Below the pieces are notes generated by a model. It worked only from the letters and a program-made list of their open reading frames with translations, was not told the origin of the DNA and searched no databases. 25,190 nucleotides of DNA from a virus, in IMG/VR virus record IMGVR_UViG_3300035698_020643, positions 1 to 25,190 of that record, one strand, 5' to 3'. Position 1 is the first letter of the stretch, and every line of letters begins with the position of its first letter. Of this stretch, positions 5,481 through 24,725 are shown one piece after another. Made by a program: the position numbers and the translations under genes.

Positions 5481-7922
5481 ATGCTTAATCTATACCAATC
5501 ACGAATAGGAGAATCATCCCTCACTTCGGTGAGAGAACAGCGGATGATTTTCCTCACGCCGGAGGAGCAGCGAGCCATCAACAGAGGCTCTGCTGGACTC
5601 TCAAAAGATGGAGATCAAAAGCTGCTCGGAAGTTTAGGGTTTTTCACAAACAAAACAACCGGAGCGATAAGTGATAGAAGTGGGACGCTTTTAAACAAAC
5701 CAGCCATTGAATCCGCAGCGGAAATAGTAGAGAGTCCAGTAGCAGTTCAAACCACCGCAACTAGATTAAACGACCTCCAAAACCGAGCCTCAGCCCCCGG
5801 TGTCTCACAAGCAGAAAAAGAAAGACTCGAAACCGTCATTCGTGGACTCAACGCAGAAACACCCGAACAGACCGCAAAGACTCAAATGTCCGACGCACAA
5901 TCTCAAGCAGAAGCAGCCCGAATAAACAGAGCAAAGAGGGAAGAAGACATCCGAACAAAAGAGGGTGAAGCTGGCAGGATGATCGAGAGAGGACAGGGAG
6001 CACTCCTACAGGCTAAAGGCGGACGAGAAGGTGTCCAGTCCTCCACAACCGCAGGAATCATCGCAGCATCAAAAACAGGAGGAGAAAAACTACTCTCCCA
6101 AGCAATCTCCGCCGATCCTGAAATCAACAGACTAAACGCGATTGAGAGCGGAAACATCGCCAAAGTCAACGCTCTTTCAGAAGCCATAAAAACAACAAGA
6201 TTTGATCGTGCTGAAGATGTCCTCGCGTTGCAAGATCAATTTGAAGACCTCCAAAAAGAACTAACAGCTAACGCCACAGACAAAGCATTAAAAACAATCA
6301 CCCAACTAGGCTCATCAGTCGCTCAATTCGATGTGAATGATTTTGTCGATTTCGCAGTCGCTCAAGGACTCGACCCAACAGTCGCCAAAGCAATTCACTC
6401 GGACAATGTAGCTCTCGCCCTAGCTCAAAAGAGCAAAGACGAAACAGCAATCCAACAGGCAGAAGCTACTCTCCAAAAAACCCTAGCAGACATTGCTCAG
6501 GTCGGAGTAAGCGATACAGATAAAACGGTAGCGGCATTACAGCGACTCCTAAACGCTGGTACGATCACACAGGAACAATTCAGTGCGGCGGTCCAAGAAG
6601 AAATAGGGATTGGCGCAGATCCGACAAAGCTCGGATTCACAACTGTTAACGGTAAATTATACTCTACCGATCCAAAAACAGGCAAAGCCACTTTAGCCGC
6701 AACTGACGAAAACAATAACCCAATCGCTCCAGCATTCAGTCAGGTAGGGAATGGTCAAATTACTTATAATTACGGATCTGCTAGTTTGAATGCTGGTGAT
6801 AATCCTTTATTGCAAAATGGTAAATTTGGAACTCCGGGCATAGATATTGATGGAAACACTGGCGATGTTATTCAAGCATTTGTGAGTGGCACGGTTACTT
6901 CTGTTGCCAATGATAATGGATATGGGAATCAAGTTATTGTTACAGACGAACAAGGAAATCAGCATATGTACTCTCATCTTCGTGAAATTCCTGAATTTCT
7001 CGCAGAAGGTCAAACTGTTACTGACGGAATGGTTCTAGGATATATGGGGAATACTGGATCGGTATTCGGAATTGAAGGTAATCGTCCAGGCGCAGGAGAC
7101 ACAGAAACAGGAAGTCATCTTGATTACCGGATTAAAGGGCAGCCAGTTATGCAGCCAAATGGTCAAAGCTCTGCATGGATTAACCCAAATGTATTTATAG
7201 CCAATAAGCCAGTTGACTTTAAAGAAGAATTGATTCCACTTTATAAAAAGTTTGGAACAGAAGGACTAGCCGCAGCTGATTGGACCGCTATCGACAAGAT
7301 GGGGATTTCACCAGAAGACTTTGCGAAACAAGCTCTTGCCAGCGCAACTACATCCGACGAAGACCAAGCGAGGATAACATTTGCCGAAGACTTGATAGAG
7401 AAAGCTCAAGTTCTTAAAAACTTCAAAGCTCTTGCAGCTAAAAAAGACAAATCAACATTTGGTATTCCGGGACTTGGTGGTGAACTCATTGATCCAAGAA
7501 CTACTGCTGCTCTCGCACCATTTGGTCTTACATTACCGTTTTCAGAATCAAGAAACTTCAAAGTAGCTTTTGATGCTTTCATCTCAAAACTATCTTTAGA
7601 CAATTTAGTTCAATTAAAATCTCAAGGTGCAACATTCGGAGCTTTGTCTGACAACGAGTTAAGGTTTATTACAAATGCTGCTTCTAAATTAAATATTGGT
7701 ATGGGAGAAGCTGATTTCCAAGAGGAGTTAAGCAAACTTATTTTAATATTTGAGTCAGCTATTCCAAATTTAGAACGCTCATCACTTGCAACCGGGACAG
7801 AAGAAACACCAACAGAATTTGCAGATAATTTTGTTGATAATTATCCAGTATCTAATCCGCAATTCTTTGGGTCTGAACCACAGAAAGAAGAAGCTGCTCC
7901 TAAAATTCAACCAACTACATAA
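5481..7922 (+). CDS. Large virion-type protein with degenerate M23 (LytM) peptidase domain
   Basis: The 813-residue protein has a helical, coiled-coil-rich N-terminal half (strongest at residues ~85-170), an M23-like domain (~440-570) and a helical C-terminal part. The M23 fold is recognisable from PGIDIDG, the DGYGNQ-type turn NDNGYGNQVIV, MYSHLREI, VLGYMGNTGS and SHLDYRI. Normal M23 enzymes bind zinc with HxxxD and the second histidine of HxH. Here the first histidine is T451 (D455 is kept) and the HxH second histidine is D548 (H546 is kept); H499 is also present. The domain is therefore either inactive or uses an altered metal site. Its DNA (about 6730-7210) is more AT-rich than the preceding part, suggesting domain exchange. 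An internal virion or tail-tip role in cell-wall passage is inferred. Confidence 0.75.
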   Translation: MLNLYQSRIGESSLTSVREQRMIFLTPEEQRAINRGSAGLSKDGDQKLLGSLGFFTNKTTGAISDRSGTLLNKPAIESAAEIVESPVAVQTTATRLNDLQNRASAPGVSQAEKERLETVIRGLNAETPEQTAKTQMSDAQSQAEAARINRAKREEDIRTKEGEAGRMIERGQGALLQAKGGREGVQSSTTAGIIAASKTGGEKLLSQAISADPEINRLNAIESGNIAKVNALSEAIKTTRFDRAEDVLALQDQFEDLQKELTANATDKALKTITQLGSSVAQFDVNDFVDFAVAQGLDPTVAKAIHSDNVALALAQKSKDETAIQQAEATLQKTLADIAQVGVSDTDKTVAALQRLLNAGTITQEQFSAAVQEEIGIGADPTKLGFTTVNGKLYSTDPKTGKATLAATDENNNPIAPAFSQVGNGQITYNYGSASLNAGDNPLLQNGKFGTPGIDIDGNTGDVIQAFVSGTVTSVANDNGYGNQVIVTDEQGNQHMYSHLREIPEFLAEGQTVTDGMVLGYMGNTGSVFGIEGNRPGAGDTETGSHLDYRIKGQPVMQPNGQSSAWINPNVFIANKPVDFKEELIPLYKKFGTEGLAAADWTAIDKMGISPEDFAKQALASATTSDEDQARITFAEDLIEKAQVLKNFKALAAKKDKSTFGIPGLGGELIDPRTTAALAPFGLTLPFSESRNFKVAFDAFISKLSLDNLVQLKSQGATFGALSDNELRFITNAASKLNIGMGEADFQEELSKLILIFESAIPNLERSSLATGTEETPTEFADNFVDNYPVSNPQFFGSEPQKEEAAPKIQPTT

Positions 7923-10603
7923 TGCCAACAATACAACAAATTCTCGACGATGCAAAAGCAAATCCTAATACCCCCCAAGCTACACAGCTTAGAGAAGTGA
8001 TAGAATCTGGTGCTTTGGATGAAAGAGCCGCTGTAGAAGGTGTGCAACTTCCTGGACGACCGAAGCCAGCGGTTCAAAGAAAACAGATAGAATCTGGCGC
8101 AGAAAAGAATATTTTTCAAAAGGCTGCTGCTGGAATTTCTGAATCTTTTAAGTCTGGACAGGAACGATTAGTCAAAGGAGCTGAATTGATAAGTGATGAT
8201 TCTGGTAAGCCATTTGTACCAGGGAAAGAAGAGATCAACACTGATGTTCTCGGACCGCGCACACTCGAAGGTTTGAGAAAACAGCCTGATTACGCTGATA
8301 ATTATTACGAAACTGGTGCTGATGCTTTACCTGAATTTGAAGCGTTCGCTGCTGAGAAAGCGTTACCAGCGGGTACACAACCAGGAAGAGCCAAAGATGA
8401 AGGTGCTTTGAATAGAAAATTTGTTGGAGCAACAGAGGCTGCTCTTGGTGCAGCTGAGGTAATCTTTTCTCCTCTTATTGGAGCTTTTGGCGCAGCGGTA
8501 CAAGACATATCTGGTGAAGTCATGAAAAATGTTAAAAACGATCAATTTGAGTGGTATCTTAAAAAAGGAGCGACAGAAGAAGAAGCCGGAGAAGCTGTTG
8601 AGTCTGATTTGAAAAACCTAGAAACAAAATTCGAGCCAATAAAAGATTTTATTGAAAAACATCCTGGTCTTGTTAATACAGCAGAAATTGGTCTTTGGTT
8701 GTGGACAGGTGGAAAGTCAAAAGCAGTTGCATCATCCGCAGAGAAAAAATTATTGAAGTTAGGAGATGATTTATTGCCACCACCAGGAGGTCCAAGTGGA
8801 AGTGGTGCTGTTGCTGATTTTAAACAATTTGTAAAAGAGTTCAGACCAATCACAAAAGCCGAAGCAGTCGTAAAAGAAACTGGCTTTATCCAAATCGGAA
8901 AGCAGAAAATCCCTACTTCAAAACCAACCGTGTCAGGTGGGATTCTCCAGAGTATGCACAAACCAATTCCTACTAAGGCACAGGCTTTTGCTGAGTCGTC
9001 TGGTAAACCAATGGGTGAATGGCTTGTGGAAAGAGGAATTATTGACACTCCCGAGAACACAGTTAAGAAGCTTTTTGATAGATTTACAAAATCCAAGTCT
9101 CAAGCTGATATTGGATTTGAGGCGATTCCTGGCAGATTCCAAGACCCTATTTTGTCTAAAGTTGCAAATGAACTTTTGATCCTAGAAAGAGAGATTGCTA
9201 AAAAAGGTGCTGCATCGGCAGATAAGAAATTTATTGAACATCTGGCAAATAGTCTTCAAGAAGGAGGACTTACAATGCCAGAGATAAACTCTCTGAAAAG
9301 ACTTTATGGTAGAAAAGTAAAAACTGAGTTTGTGAAAGATTCGACAAAAACCAGTACAGAAATTCAAGCTAAAACTAATGTAGATAATAGTTTAAGGAAA
9401 TGGCAATCAGGAAAAGCAGAAGAATTAGGATTTGATGATCTGGCTGCCATCAACATAGAAACAATGCAGTCTCGGGCAGTAATGGATGCGATAGGTGAAA
9501 GATTCTTGCGAAAGCAGAGCAACAACGCGGTTAGTTTAACTGATTGGATTGTTGCATCTGGAGGTGCTGCTAATCCTGCTTTCTTTGGTGCTTTGTTTGG
9601 AAAAAAACTTGTAAGTGCGGATGCGTTTCAAGCTCTCTTCGCAAAAGCATTAGCCAAAAAAGCAACGGTCGGTGAACCAGCAATAACTTCTCTCGGTGTT
9701 ATTGAAAGAAAGGCAAAAATTCAGGAAGGTGCAGCAGCTATTCGCGAAACCAAAAGTGCCACCCAGCCAGTCCTACCCCGAGAAGGAAAAATCCTAGAAA
9801 AGCCATCGGATGTAAGTGTAACCAAGCCAAAGTCTTTTAGCAAGGCGGGAGCTGCCGAAGTGCCAACTAGCTCACAAGTAAAAAAAGCAGCACAAACTAA
9901 ACTTGACGCAAACTTTGATGAGATGGTCGAAGAATCTATCAAGAAAAACGGTAAGATTTCTAGCGCTGACAGTGATAAAAACTTATTCAAAGATGTAGGT
10001 TATGATGGCACAAATGCTGAATCAGTACATCAAGTGTCAAAAGAAATAGCGAATGAAACATTCAAGAGAAATCTGAATAGAAATCCAGGGAAATATGGAG
10101 TTCTTTATGCTGGCGGTAGCGGATCTGGAAAAACATCTTCGATCACTGCCGTTTTACCGGATAATCTTAAAAATGCTGCTGCGGTTTATGATGGTAATTT
10201 GTCGAAGCTTTCTTCTTTTAGCCAAAAAGCATTTGCTACCAAAAAAGCAGGCAAAGATCTTCAAATAGTGTACGTTTATCGAGATCCATTGGATGCTTGG
10301 GAAAATGGAGTGATCGCCAGAATGCTTGGGACCAGAGAAACAGGCAGAGTTGTCCCAGGTAACATATTTGTTGGAAATACTCACGGCGCATTTGATGTAG
10401 TAAAACAAATCCCAGAATCACAAATGGTTGTTATCGACAATTCGCTTGGAAAAGGAAAAGCTGCTAGAATGGCAGCTGGTAAGTTTGATAAAATTAAAAT
10501 GCAATCTCCAGAACAGATGAAAAAGGAAATCGATGCAATAACTAATAAATATTATGACCAAGGAAAAATCACCATCGAACAGCGAGACGCTCTCCTTGAA
10601 TGA
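7922..10603 (+). CDS. Large phage protein with C-terminal zeta-toxin-like kinase domain
   Basis: The first ~690 residues of this 893-residue protein are helical and charged, with a hydrophobic stretch near residues 174-193 (AALGAAEVIFSPLIGAFGAA), and match nothing I can name. Residues ~700-893 look like a zeta-toxin/UDP-sugar kinase fold: a Walker A motif GGSGSGKT (731-738, lysine 737), an aspartate in VYDGN (D757) where zeta enzymes have the catalytic base, then YVYRDP (R787) and a TGRVVP...H segment as in the family lid region. Zeta toxins phosphorylate UDP-N-acetylglucosamine and block wall synthesis. No epsilon-type antitoxin lies adjacent. Such domains occur at the ends of large phage or effector proteins, so delivery with the particle is possible but inferred. 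It ends LLE-TGA, but coding character continues in the +1 frame to 10703. Confidence 0.7.
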   Translation: MPTIQQILDDAKANPNTPQATQLREVIESGALDERAAVEGVQLPGRPKPAVQRKQIESGAEKNIFQKAAAGISESFKSGQERLVKGAELISDDSGKPFVPGKEEINTDVLGPRTLEGLRKQPDYADNYYETGADALPEFEAFAAEKALPAGTQPGRAKDEGALNRKFVGATEAALGAAEVIFSPLIGAFGAAVQDISGEVMKNVKNDQFEWYLKKGATEEEAGEAVESDLKNLETKFEPIKDFIEKHPGLVNTAEIGLWLWTGGKSKAVASSAEKKLLKLGDDLLPPPGGPSGSGAVADFKQFVKEFRPITKAEAVVKETGFIQIGKQKIPTSKPTVSGGILQSMHKPIPTKAQAFAESSGKPMGEWLVERGIIDTPENTVKKLFDRFTKSKSQADIGFEAIPGRFQDPILSKVANELLILEREIAKKGAASADKKFIEHLANSLQEGGLTMPEINSLKRLYGRKVKTEFVKDSTKTSTEIQAKTNVDNSLRKWQSGKAEELGFDDLAAINIETMQSRAVMDAIGERFLRKQSNNAVSLTDWIVASGGAANPAFFGALFGKKLVSADAFQALFAKALAKKATVGEPAITSLGVIERKAKIQEGAAAIRETKSATQPVLPREGKILEKPSDVSVTKPKSFSKAGAAEVPTSSQVKKAAQTKLDANFDEMVEESIKKNGKISSADSDKNLFKDVGYDGTNAESVHQVSKEIANETFKRNLNRNPGKYGVLYAGGSGSGKTSSITAVLPDNLKNAAAVYDGNLSKLSSFSQKAFATKKAGKDLQIVYVYRDPLDAWENGVIARMLGTRETGRVVPGNIFVGNTHGAFDVVKQIPESQMVVIDNSLGKGKAARMAAGKFDKIKMQSPEQMKKEIDAITNKYYDQGKITIEQRDALLE

Positions 10604-13673: not shown

Positions 13674-14297
13674 CTACATTGTAACATAAAAGCGAGTTAC
13701 GTTTTCTAGCCAAATTTTACTGCGATCTCCGCCTGTCCACCTAATCGCGTCTGCGAGAGTCGGGAATCCTCCGTATGATTTCCTCCAGTTCCACTTGAAA
13801 CTGGCGTAGGATGCGGCTACTGTGTCAAATTTGACGAATTTGCCTCGTTCACGAATTCCAAAACAATTATTGTGAGTAATTCCGACTCCTCGGGTGCAGT
13901 CCCCTGTCTCAGCTATTGCTACTGCCCGAGAGAGGCGATCGAGATCGACCGCGCCCGCTCCTCGGCTATTTTCATTTCCTCCTCTCTGAGACTGATAATC
14001 GTTTGGTTGACTTTCGCTAATTCGACTTCCGCTTCCGACAGTAAAACTTCCGCCGTGTATTTTTGCGCTAGGTAATTTGACTTCACGATTCTCGCATCCG
14101 CTTGCTCCACATGAATATCTTGGAGCCGTAATTCCGCTGTACTGCCATTCGCGAGCAAAGAGGGCAGGAACAAAAAGCAAACAGCATACAAAGCTAATGC
14201 CAAAATTACTCCTGCGATTATTTCTTGTTTGCGGTTTTTGAAAATCCGCTTCGACTGGTTTCCGAGATTTTGTGTTGGTGTGTTTTGCATGATTCAT
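13674..14297 (-). CDS. Lysozyme-like C-terminal domain, in a frame that overlaps the membrane/coiled-coil gene
   Basis: The last ~85 residues read as a lysozyme-like (glucosaminidase-type) domain: DLDRLSRAVAIAETGDCTRG, THNNCFGI, ASYASFKWNWRKSYGGFP and WTGGDRSKIWLENVTRFY. I recognise the ETGxCT...NNCFGI pattern from uncharacterised bacterial and phage proteins. The frame can be opened at ATG 14297, but before 13960 it is a composition shadow of the overlapping 123-residue frame, and no start codon lies close to the domain. The domain frame is -1 relative to the overlapping gene, so it may be reached by -1 frameshifting, or an assembly error may have split one gene. If read from 14297, the segment FGISFVCCLLFVPALFA would serve as a signal peptide. 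All three remain possible. Confidence 0.5.
   Translation of the reverse strand: MNHAKHTNTKSRKPVEADFQKPQTRNNRRSNFGISFVCCLLFVPALFAREWQYSGITAPRYSCGASGCENREVKLPSAKIHGGSFTVGSGSRISESQPNDYQSQRGGNENSRGAGAVDLDRLSRAVAIAETGDCTRGVGITHNNCFGIRERGKFVKFDTVAASYASFKWNWRKSYGGFPTLADAIRWTGGDRSKIWLENVTRFYVTM
13919..14290 (-). CDS. Membrane-anchored coiled-coil protein, likely N-terminal half of a lysozyme fusion
   Basis: The 123-residue frame has a basic N-terminus (RIFKNRKQ), one transmembrane segment (IIAGVILALALYAVCFLFL) and a charged helical part (KYTAEVLLSEAEVELAKVNQ, then LREEEMKIAEERAR) that looks like a coiled coil. It stops at TAG 13919-13921, just as the lysozyme-like domain begins in the -1 frame. The ATG at 14290 is supported by TTTAAC ten bases upstream. 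As a separate protein it resembles an inner-membrane spanin; joined to the next frame it would be a membrane-tethered wall hydrolase. Confidence 0.6.
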   Translation of the reverse strand: MQNTPTQNLGNQSKRIFKNRKQEIIAGVILALALYAVCFLFLPSLLANGSTAELRLQDIHVEQADARIVKSNYLAQKYTAEVLLSEAEVELAKVNQTIISLREEEMKIAEERARSISIASLGQ

Positions 14298-21029: not shown

Positions 21030-21224
21030 ATGCCCATCACCACCCGACATCTCGATTGGTCAGATAAAAAACATGATTTTGACGACATGGAAGGAGGAGA
21101 AAAAAACACCATCTCCATGAAAGAAGCCAGAGAGGAAATGGTCAAGAGGATAGATATGCTTCTACACACCCAAGAGGGCAGGGAGAAGATTGGGAAAGTG
21201 CTTGGATGTAAGATTGAAAGTTAA
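21030..21224 (+). CDS. Small hypothetical protein, 64 aa
   Basis: A charged, probably helical protein: acidic in the first half (SDKKHDFDDMEGGEK), with a longer helix MKEAREEMVKRIDMLLH after it and an ending KIGKVLGCKIES. No family is recognised. It ends five bases before the structured RNA at 21230, so that RNA would be transcribed directly behind it. Confidence 0.5.
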   Translation: MPITTRHLDWSDKKHDFDDMEGGEKNTISMKEAREEMVKRIDMLLHTQEGREKIGKVLGCKIES

Positions 21225-21229
21225 AATAT

Positions 21230-21350
21230 GGCGGTGCGGCGTGGATGACCGACACGCATTGCGCTAATAACGCGAAGGTGGAGAATGTTGCCACCAACGG
21301 CACAAGGACGCTTGTGTGAGAGATAGCAGGTGTGAATCCTGCCACCGCCA
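21230..21350 (+). ncRNA. tRNA-derived structured RNA with two extra hairpins (non-canonical tRNA-like element)
   Basis: All stems are perfect or have one G-U pair. Acceptor stem GGCGGTG (21230-21236) pairs with CACCGCC (21343-21349). D-arm GCGTG/CACGC (21239-21243/21253-21257). Anticodon arm TTGCG/CGCGA (21259-21263/21271-21275) has a 7-base loop CTAATAA, with T33 and anticodon position AAT. T-arm is GCAGG/CCTGC (21326-21330/21338-21342). The variable region is about 50 bases and holds two further hairpins, GGTGG/CCACC (21277-21281/21291-21295) and CACAAG/CTTGTG (21301-21306/21311-21316). After the acceptor comes A then CCT, one base from CCA. Departures from true tRNA: base 8 is C, the D-loop lacks GG, and the T-loop is TGTGAAT instead of TTCxAxT. 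About 59% GC by hand count, against an AT-rich surround. Ordinary tRNA function is doubtful. Confidence 0.6.
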
Positions 21351-22260: not shown

Positions 22261-22661
22261 ATGATAAAATATCTGATTTACAGGTTGGAATTGCGGGAGA
22301 ACACTTAGTTTGTGCTGACTTAATTACAATGGGTCATAGAGCATTTTTATCAGACCAGGGATTACCATATGATATTGTCGCAGAAATAGACGACAAGCTA
22401 TACAGAATACAGGTGAAGACAACAAGTAAATTTAGAGCTATACCACAAAGAAAAAAATACACTCCTGCATATTTATTTTGGATTAAAAGATGTGGTAAGG
22501 GTGGGAAAAAAACGTATACAGAAAAAGATTTTGACTTCATGGCGTTGGTAGCATTGGACAAAAAAATTGTTGGTTATATTGAAAGAGACCAAGCTAAATC
22601 AACCATGCACATTAACGAACAAAAATTAAAAGCATTAACGTTTGAAAAATTATGGAAATAA
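22257..22661 (+). CDS. PD-(D/E)XK endonuclease, I-Ssp6803I-like (possible homing endonuclease)
   Basis: The 134-residue protein has GIAGEHLVCADLITMGHRA (E15), LPYDIVAEID (D39) and YRIQVKTTSK with Q52-x-K54, followed by a beta/charged region. The E...D...QxK set matches what I recall of I-Ssp6803I and the PD-(D/E)XK endonuclease family it belongs to, in which Q replaces the usual E/D. These act as homing enzymes or stand-alone nucleases. It begins in the stop of a broken methyltransferase fragment and ends 10 bases inside a complete methyltransferase, so it may have inserted into such a gene. A restriction partner for the following methyltransferase is the main alternative. Confidence 0.65.
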   Translation: MNDKISDLQVGIAGEHLVCADLITMGHRAFLSDQGLPYDIVAEIDDKLYRIQVKTTSKFRAIPQRKKYTPAYLFWIKRCGKGGKKTYTEKDFDFMALVALDKKIVGYIERDQAKSTMHINEQKLKALTFEKLWK

Positions 22662-23854
22662 ACAAGATTTACCACGGAGATTGTTTGGAAGTGATGAGAA
22701 CTTTTCCAGATAACTGCATTGATGCATTGTGTTGCGATCCACCTTACGGAATTTCGTTTATGGGAAAGAAGTGGGATTACGATGTGCCGAAAGTTGAGTT
22801 GTGGCAAGAAGTTTTGAGGGTTTTAAAGCCGGGTGGACACGCTCTTGTTGCTTGCGGAACTCGAACACAACATCGAATGGCAGTCAATTTGGAAGATGCT
22901 GGATTTGAGATAAGAGATATAGTGGCTTGGATATATGGGAGTGGATTCCCGAAAAGTTTGAATATCGGAAAGGCGGTTGATAAGTTACAAGGGAATGAGA
23001 GAGAGGACTTAGGAATAAGCGATGCCACAAGACCAAATCACCAAAAAGGGAATGCTGGAATGCAAAGGTTACTAAATAACAACAACCCTCATTCTGAAAT
23101 AAGACTAACCAAAGGCTCATCTCCTTACGAAGGCTGGGGAACAGCTCTAAAACCAGCTATGGAATTATGGACTCTCTGCCGCAAACCTCTCGAAGAAAAA
23201 ACGGTGGCTCAGAATGTTTTGAAATATGGAACAGGTGGGATAAATATTGATGGGTGTCGGGTAGAGGGAACTGATGAAATACCAACATTTACACGAGATT
23301 TAACAAATGCTCATGGAAATAATTTTGGTGCTGGAACAAAAATACCAACTAAATCAAATGGAGTAACTGGACAAGGCAGATTCCCAGCAAACCTAATCCA
23401 CGACGGAAGTGATGAAGTGGTAGAGGGGTTTCCAGAAAACACACAAAGATTTTTTTACACAGCCAAGGCTTCAAAGAGCGAAAGGAATAAAGGATTGGAG
23501 GGGTTTGAGGAGAAGGAGAAATATAAACTTGATAACTCTGGTAATTCGCACGAAATACATTCTAAAAACAACAAGCGAGTTAACCCTAAAACTGGAGTAT
23601 TGGAAGAAAGAAAACCAACTGACGGAAAGAGCAAAAATTCTCACCCAACGGTAAAACCAGTAGCTCTAATGCGATACCTCTGCCGACTCATCACTCCAAA
23701 AGGTGGAACAATTCTCGACCCATTTGTCGGAAGTGGTACGACTGGAATCGGGGCGAAGTTAGAGGGATTTGATTTTATCGGAATTGAAAGAGAGGAAGAA
23801 TATTGTAAAATTGCAGAGGCGAGAATCAATGCACTAGAACCAAGACTTTTATAA
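22652..23854 (+). CDS. Beta-class DNA methyltransferase (N6-adenine/N4-cytosine type)
   Basis: The 400-residue protein carries DPPYG (D29-Y32) near the N-terminus and DPFVGSGTT (F358) near the C-terminus, with VLRVLKPGGHALVACG in between, the order of motifs IV then I that defines class beta. The middle part from ~110 to ~330 is the target-recognition region. The enzyme transfers a methyl group from S-adenosylmethionine to an amino group in DNA, commonly to protect phage DNA from restriction. It overlaps the endonuclease gene by 10 bases. Base specificity cannot be read from sequence alone. Confidence 0.9.
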   Translation: MEINKIYHGDCLEVMRTFPDNCIDALCCDPPYGISFMGKKWDYDVPKVELWQEVLRVLKPGGHALVACGTRTQHRMAVNLEDAGFEIRDIVAWIYGSGFPKSLNIGKAVDKLQGNEREDLGISDATRPNHQKGNAGMQRLLNNNNPHSEIRLTKGSSPYEGWGTALKPAMELWTLCRKPLEEKTVAQNVLKYGTGGINIDGCRVEGTDEIPTFTRDLTNAHGNNFGAGTKIPTKSNGVTGQGRFPANLIHDGSDEVVEGFPENTQRFFYTAKASKSERNKGLEGFEEKEKYKLDNSGNSHEIHSKNNKRVNPKTGVLEERKPTDGKSKNSHPTVKPVALMRYLCRLITPKGGTILDPFVGSGTTGIGAKLEGFDFIGIEREEEYCKIAEARINALEPRLL

Positions 23855-23912: not shown

Positions 23913-24725
23913 ATGAAAACACTAGATGAAATCACGAATTGGAAAGACATGATTGGTAATGTTATGAATACTGATTGCTTGGAGGCGATGAAGTTGATCC
24001 CAGACAATTCGATTGATTTAGTTCTGACTTCTCCACCTTATGATAATTTGAGAGATTACGAGGGATATTCTTTTAATTTTAAAGAAACTGCTAAACAAAT
24101 TGAACGAGTATTAAAACATGGAGGTGTGTGTGTTTGGGTTGTTGGAGACGCTGTTGTAAATAATTCAGAAAGTGGAACAAGTTTTAAGCAAGCACTTTAT
24201 TTTAAAGAAATTGGATTAAATTTACACGACACAATGATTTATGAAAAAAATGGTTCACCATACCCAGAAAAAAATAGATATTATCAATGTTTTGAGTATA
24301 TGTTTGTTTTTTCAAAAGGAAAACCAAAAACAGTTAATCTAATATCAGATAGGAAAAATAAATGGTCTGGGAGTTGGGGGAACAGAAGCGTAAGAAATAA
24401 AGCAGGAGAATTAAAAGCAGGAGAAAAAATCGAGTGTAATGAATTTGGAGTTAGATTTAATATTTGGAGAATAAATAATGGTTTTGGTTTTAGCTCAAAA
24501 GATAAAATTTCACATCAACATCCAGCAATATTCCCAGATAAACTAGCGCAGGACCACATCAAAAGCTGGAGTAACGAAAGAGACTTAATTCTCGACCCAT
24601 TTCTCGGAAGCGGAACTACCGCCAGAGCTTGCAAAGATTTAAGCAGGCGTTTTATCGGAGTTGAAATTTCAGAAAAATACTGCGAGATAGCAGAAGAAAG
24701 ATTATCTCAAGAAGTTTTATTTTAA
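23913..24725 (+). CDS. Beta-class DNA methyltransferase, second complete copy
   Basis: The 270-residue protein has SPPYD (S40-Y43) and DPFLGSGTT (F230) with the beta-class order, plus [18 protein letters not shown] between them. SPPY is more typical of N4-cytosine and some N6-adenine enzymes. It is unlike the preceding methyltransferase apart from the shared motifs, so they are separate acquisitions rather than a recent duplication. The start at 23913 gives an N-terminal addition before [12 protein letters not shown] 23951 would be a shorter option. Likely role is modification of phage DNA. Confidence 0.85.

Follow-up and report, generated by a model that had tools for sequence, protein, structure and literature searches.

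Two described systems come closest to the RNA considered here, namely RNAC and RNAD of phage T4 and the transfer RNA (tRNA) domain of transfer-messenger RNA (tmRNA). RNAC and RNAD (species 1 and 2 RNA), 119-139 nt in length, are encoded in the phage tRNA cluster; they are counted among the late RNAs and have been examined on Northern blots (PMC9697503), and their biological roles are unknown (PMC3014915). The tRNA domain of tmRNA (RF00023) joins a tRNA acceptor and T-arm with no anticodon arm. Another tRNA-like molecule, the pseudo-tRNA tRNA-Other of Bacillus cereus, is non-translational, and its deletion alters cell-wall and antibiotic phenotypes (PMC3399842). The subject of the present analysis is a tRNA-like cloverleaf at positions 21230-21350 of a 25,190-nt stretch of viral DNA (IMG/VR record IMGVR_UViG_3300035698_020643, positions 1 to 25,190; hereafter the window, by which the whole stretch is meant). 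It probably belongs, as a diverged member, to a large class of phage RNAs that seems not to have been catalogued before; these retain the acceptor, D- and T-arms of a tRNA, the codon-reading arm having been replaced, and so resemble tRNA mimics more than functional tRNAs.

The decisive evidence for the window element is its match, with exactly its ends, to an independent covariance model of the class. This model, R1, was built from 55 rows of the main branch (type 0) with the window excluded. Searched against the complete window without filters, it gave a single good match, 21230-21350 on the plus strand, which takes in both ends of the model (19.1 bits, E = 0.003). The runner-up in the window reached 9.5 bits; for comparison, 92 kb of other viral DNA yielded at most 10.6 bits, and 51 kb of relatives, elements excepted, at most 10.0 bits. 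With default filters R1 misses the element, which is therefore to be regarded as a distant member. In the R1 alignment, GCG of the D-arm (21239-21241) pairs with CGC of CGCTAA (21262-21267) across a 20-nt insert, and CGCTAA is common to the window, two other sequences of the set (L005 and L179) and a second branch, type 2. The element shares with the class a 7-bp acceptor, GGCGGTG/CACCGCC, stacked on a T-arm with T54, G55 and A58. The Leu-like D-loop (GAATAGGTAGA) and 6-bp T-stem of type 0 are absent from it; since its D-arm differs and its T-stem has 5 bp, it belongs to a diverged branch and not to type 0. That the window encodes a structured tRNA-like RNA of this class is very likely.

The fold itself agrees with what the initial annotation had drawn from the letters. 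Both the minimum free energy and the centroid structures give a six-stem cloverleaf, at -50.3 kcal/mol versus -38.35 +/- 3.29 for shuffles, with none of 200 shuffles as low (z = -3.63). The single G-U pair counted in that annotation is correct if extra hairpin 2 is taken as 6 bp and becomes two if it is taken as 7 bp. Its list of missing tRNA bases is borne out, as there is a C at position 8, GG is missing from the D-loop, the T-loop reads TGTGAAT rather than containing TTC, and the element ends in ACCT without CCA. Descent from a tRNA, which it had also proposed, or mimicry of one is likewise supported.

The class was delimited by a pattern consisting of a Leu-like D-arm followed 35-65 bases on by GGTGCAAATCC, the acceptor not being part of it, and at least 120 viral stretches match. 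Among the matches listed there are 112 distinct elements, of which 95 have all seven acceptor pairs, 101 the full six-pair T-stem and 71 an A73; in the same listed matches 62 different acceptor sequences occur, and acceptor pairs 1 to 6 are each seen as all four Watson-Crick types. The covariation score of the 55 non-redundant type-0 rows is 0.689, compared with 0.162 for shuffled and at most 0.118 for slid alignments. As these rows were picked for full pairing, their paired percentage is uninformative, and the unselected figure is the 112-element count. Changes in the D-stem are seen in members outside the pattern (GTG/CAC in L127, ACG/CGT in Listeria phage PSA). In addition, a third helix ending 2 nt 5' of the T-stem has at least four pairs in 38 of 67 elements, where 13 are expected (maximum 26), and at least five in 19 of the 67, where 3.5 are expected. 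Judged by this covariation in sequence, type 0 is a real structured RNA and the shape is under selection in the class, a statement that applies at class level and not to the window's own central hairpins. Relatives in other phages show compensatory changes in the acceptor, the T-stem and occasionally the D-stem; the window's own anticodon-position arm and two extra hairpins are represented by identical copies only.

From 5' to 3', type 0 comprises a 7-bp acceptor strand, TG, a D-arm (3 bp, 11-nt loop with G18G19), a linker, a variable hairpin, AT, a T-arm (6 bp, loop TGCAAAT), the second acceptor strand and usually A73, with no CCA; acceptor and T-stem form a 13-bp helix. Class elements are about 85-180 nt long, have no anticodon arm and carry the length-variable hairpin before the T-arm. 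By tRNA position numbers assigned in this analysis, type 0 retains most known tertiary partners of tRNA (T8, A14, A15/T48, G18G19, C56, T54/A58) and departs from tRNA in G55 (U to G) and in the missing anticodon arm. The loss of elbow bases that the initial annotation saw in the window is not typical of the class: in the large type-0 branch mainly position 55 has changed, and the window's loops have diverged further. In several members of the class the middle region includes a further T-arm of canonical appearance (loop TTCGANT), as though pieces of tRNA had been inserted or fused (see table).

The branches were reached by scanning IMG/VR with the window T-arm, GCAGGTGTGAATCCTGCC, which returned L002 and L004 (the same virus) together with tRNA-like elements in L003/L006 and L005. 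L002 and L004 hold an element identical to the window's, and for that reason carry no covariation information for its stems. The L003/L006 element lies 2 nt downstream of a tRNA-Thr, and L005 has at least four tRNA-like elements in series. One of these is of type 0, with a tRNA-Leu-like D-arm (GTGGCGGAATAGGTAGACGC) and T-loop TGCAAAT, and another is of type 1, with T-loop TGTGATT, the window's loop type; the two share their acceptor and 5' end (GGCTCTGTGGCG), which links the branches. Type 1 consists of the window, L003, L005 and L179 (T-loop TGTGANT, 5-bp T-stem). Type 2, with seven distinct elements, is marked by GAAGAGAGA as the loop of its D-arm and by AGNRTGG as the loop of a 7-bp terminal hairpin; the contig that carries one of these elements (L043) has been assigned to Paenibacillus sp. 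TCA20. Type 0, the branch with the Leu-like D-arm, is found in many sequenced phages where nothing is annotated, and its carriers include Lactobacillus plantarum phage Satyr, Bacillus phage KLEB27-1 and Weissella phage WC29P3. A pattern search of the viral collection found no type-0 D-arm combined with the window's T-loop; on that pattern the branches therefore show no intergradation. The C56-to-T change and the loss of G19 may be two sides of a coordinated exchange, a suggestion drawn from the GA of several type-1 D-loops in four or five sequences. When the branches were all aligned together (A2), L003 and an L005 element were misaligned, and no model was built from that alignment.

Other candidates were set aside. 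L007 and L008 from the T-arm scan, and L178 from a gap-pattern match, look like chance or coding matches; a Stenotrophomonas phage BLAST match of the window region is not a tRNA-like fold, and those in Ruegeria and Lactobacillus are ordinary tRNAs. A descriptor search of L014-L016, relatives by neighbouring gene (52% identical), found no comparable element. Also in L005, two intergenic stretches on the minus strand (7900-8135 and 2440-2680) appear strongly self-complementary by eye, with no Rfam match in the locus.

In temperate Firmicutes phages the class elements follow an ArpU-type late activator and precede HNH/terminase genes, and in other phages they sit in tRNA clusters; one member follows a phage tmRNA at a distance of 2 nt. 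Tandem arrays of three are found in each of L177, L098 and L175, the L177 array having 2-6-nt spacers and standing directly after a tRNA-Met. Outside open reading frames (ORFs) of at least 100 aa lie 70 of 80 elements, mostly in same-strand placement, between same-strand genes and ahead of ribosome-binding sites. Of 398 genomes from the phylum to which the Paenibacillus genome belongs, only three gave a strong match, with stricter filters and a small number of candidates scored in each genome; this fits an RNA carried by viruses. Between a tRNA-Leu and a class element, ARAGORN places 98-nt 'tRNA-???' calls with four-base anticodons (aaag, gaag) at L072:3708-3805 and L144:10417-10514.

Compared with these elements, the precedents differ in several ways. 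Like the class, RNAC has a tRNA T-arm as its own 3' end, although its T-loop is the canonical TTCGAAT. RNAC and RNAD show no similarity to the window or the class: BLASTN of the element gave no T4-like match, R1 had no match in the T4 region (L052), and the RNAC/RNAD matches found were all in T4-like phages. The tmRNA tRNA domain resembles the class in architecture and is encoded by some of the same phages; unlike tmRNA, class elements measure roughly the 85-180 nt given above, have no tag ORF that could be found and, in type 0, carry a Leu-like D-arm with G18G19, and RF00023 gave no above-threshold match to them. The B. cereus tRNA-Other differs in its Trp anticodon, its place beside a chromosomal genomic island and its architecture. 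The Listeria small RNAs rliG and rli62 (RF02415, RF01486) occupy the same interval after an ArpU-like activator, and the rliG match overlaps the start of the class element in L057; their sequence and fold are nonetheless different, and phages A118 and A500 have rliG and no class element in that interval. In Listeria phages, rliG or rli62, the tRNA-like element and mcrA RNA stand in series from the ArpU-like activator to the HNH/terminase genes. No description of the class was found in the literature searched, which lacked most subscription journals, and its novelty is probable.

As to function, the RNA may be transcribed together with its neighbours and then released by the tRNA maturation enzymes of the host, with RNase P cutting at the 5' acceptor end and RNase Z or exonucleases acting at the 3' one. 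The product would persist as a stable small RNA displaying a tRNA elbow and acceptor end, a mimic unable to take part in decoding. It could then engage a host protein that binds tRNA, for example a defence nuclease that cleaves tRNAs or an enzyme that handles them, and so serve as a decoy or sponge. The arrays with 2-6-nt spacers beside canonical tRNAs in L177, and the L003 element after tRNA-Thr, suggest tRNA-like processing, and an excised, stable RNA is reasonably likely. Use as a decoy is a tentative proposal, put forward because the class has no decoding arm, conserves the elbow and acceptor, and is carried by phages, and because published work (for example PMC10264068, PMC13096335) describes phage defences that target tRNAs. 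More speculative still is the broader possibility that these are widespread, purpose-built tRNA mimics against host tRNA-targeting defences or tRNA-handling enzymes, with the window as a strongly diverged branch marked by coordinated D- and T-loop changes.

Class membership, excision and a stable tRNA-elbow mimic used as a decoy together form the best explanation, with a probability of roughly 0.4. Several points weigh against it. Class members are known here at the level of sequence, and the decoy role is conjectural. The R1 score of the window element is modest, its D-loop and T-loop deviate from the class consensus, and it lies in no tRNA cluster, no tRNA having been detected in the window.

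Among the alternatives, the best placed is that the fold acts in cis as punctuation, being cut by RNase P and RNase Z to separate messages or protect their ends, the RNA thus cut out having no function in itself. The position of the elements between same-strand genes ahead of ribosome-binding sites, and their frequent occurrence behind ArpU, where the late region begins, would suit such a role. The tandem threes in L177 and L098 are hard to explain in this way, and the near-invariance of the D-loop and T-loop goes beyond what cleavage needs, which leaves this an unlikely account.

Less probable again is a tmRNA-like or non-ribosomal tRNA-like molecule that is charged without an anticodon and serves rescue or another aminoacyl-dependent reaction. 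The leucyl- and alanyl-tRNA synthetases (LeuRS and AlaRS) do not require the anticodon for charging. The tRNA-Leu-like D-arm, the frequent A73 and the member adjoining a phage tmRNA are all in keeping with this idea. Set against them are the lack of an encoded CCA, the failure to find a tag ORF, and a 13-bp acceptor/T helix (type 0) with G55, which would be unusual for EF-Tu and translation.

About equally improbable is that the window element arose by chance or is a tRNA pseudogene in decay, its likeness to the class being superficial. An acceptor of 7 bp next to a T-arm of 5 bp with a 7-nt loop, both without mismatch, arises in 139 of 300 shuffled windows (46%), falling to 12 of 300 when a D-arm is added and 8 of 300 with a T..A loop. 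Taken on its own, the sequence is accordingly no more than suggestive and its cloverleaf less improbable than at first sight, so that outside evidence is needed. Identical copies are the only ones found, and E = 0.003 is not extreme. The z-score and six intact stems speak against this reading, as does the exact-end match to a model made without the element; the window's T-loop also recurs in tRNA-like elements elsewhere, beside a tRNA in L003 and beside class members in L005. The preference of the initial annotation for a structured RNA over a decaying pseudogene is in this respect upheld.

That annotation was also right in not reading the element as a standard tRNA. Neither ARAGORN (tRNA or tmRNA) nor Rfam 15 at E <= 1 gave any match in the window, tmRNA included; class members are recognised neither by ARAGORN nor by the Rfam tRNA model at E <= 1, and up to E 0.5-1 no Rfam family covers them. 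A possible likeness of the T-loop to cobalamin riboswitches was dropped, there being no Rfam match. Canonical tRNA-Leu genes with TTCRANY loops and anticodons sit separately in the same phages (L105, L144, L080, L117, L164), so class elements are not ordinary tRNA genes. A decoding tRNA with an unusual anticodon arm (AAT in the loop CTAATAA) and a long variable region is very improbable, because, despite a 5-bp anticodon-position arm with 7-nt loop and T33, the window element lacks T54-T55-C56, G18-G19, T8 and CCA, draws no call from ARAGORN or the Rfam tRNA model, and belongs with a class that has no conserved anticodon arm.

Coordinates of the window element, its neighbours and related features (window positions unless an L number is given)
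Feature	Position	Strand	Basis or remark
Whole tRNA-like element, acceptor to discriminator base A	21230..21350	+	fold; covariance-model match with exactly these ends
Acceptor 5' strand GGCGGTG, 7 Watson-Crick pairs to 21343-21349	21230..21236	+	sequence, fold
D-arm GCGTG/CACGC, 5 bp, 9-nt loop	21239..21257	+	fold
Anticodon-position hairpin, 5 bp, 7-nt loop CTAATAA	21259..21275	+	fold; no anticodon-arm call by ARAGORN
Extra hairpin 1, GGTGG/CCACC, 5 bp	21277..21295	+	fold
Extra hairpin 2, GCACAAG/CTTGTGT, 6-7 bp	21300..21317	+	fold
T-arm GCAGG/CCTGC, 5 bp, loop TGTGAAT	21326..21342	+	fold; same or near-same loop in L003, L005, L179
Acceptor 3' strand CACCGCC, then ACCT in place of ACCA	21343..21349	+	sequence, fold
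Small upstream ORF, 64 aa, without Pfam match	21030..21224	+	same strand as element
Small downstream ORF, 59 aa	21365..21544	+	same strand as element
Member with second T-arm	L177:2363-2511		
Member with second T-arm	L177:2632-2779		
Member with second T-arm	L098:11362-11509	-	
Member with second T-arm	L179:10764-10877	-	
Member with second T-arm	L005:2773-2953	-	
Listeria structured-RNA cluster	L189:680-1125		
Listeria structured-RNA cluster	L190:365-938		
Listeria structured-RNA cluster	L057:238-724		

Within the window the element fills the gap between the 64-aa and 59-aa ORFs. Another 7-bp and T-arm-like arrangement, with loop TTGTGAG and no D-arm, lies at 13757-13888, and its frequency is at chance level. 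Further downstream, after a PDDEXK-like small protein, are two adjoining DNA methyltransferase genes (phrog_67; 22652-23854 and 23913-24725).

The class is present in well over a hundred viral contigs, is apparently absent from Rfam 15 and is unannotated in the records examined, its carriers including sequenced phages of Listeria, Enterococcus, Lactobacillus, Weissella, Brochothrix and Bacillus. If its members are indeed stable tRNA mimics, they would supply a naturally occurring set of minimal tRNA elbows on which RNase P, CCA enzymes and tRNA-targeting defences could be studied, and would offer a testable route into the non-decoding work of phage tRNA clusters, a question open since T4 RNAC and RNAD.
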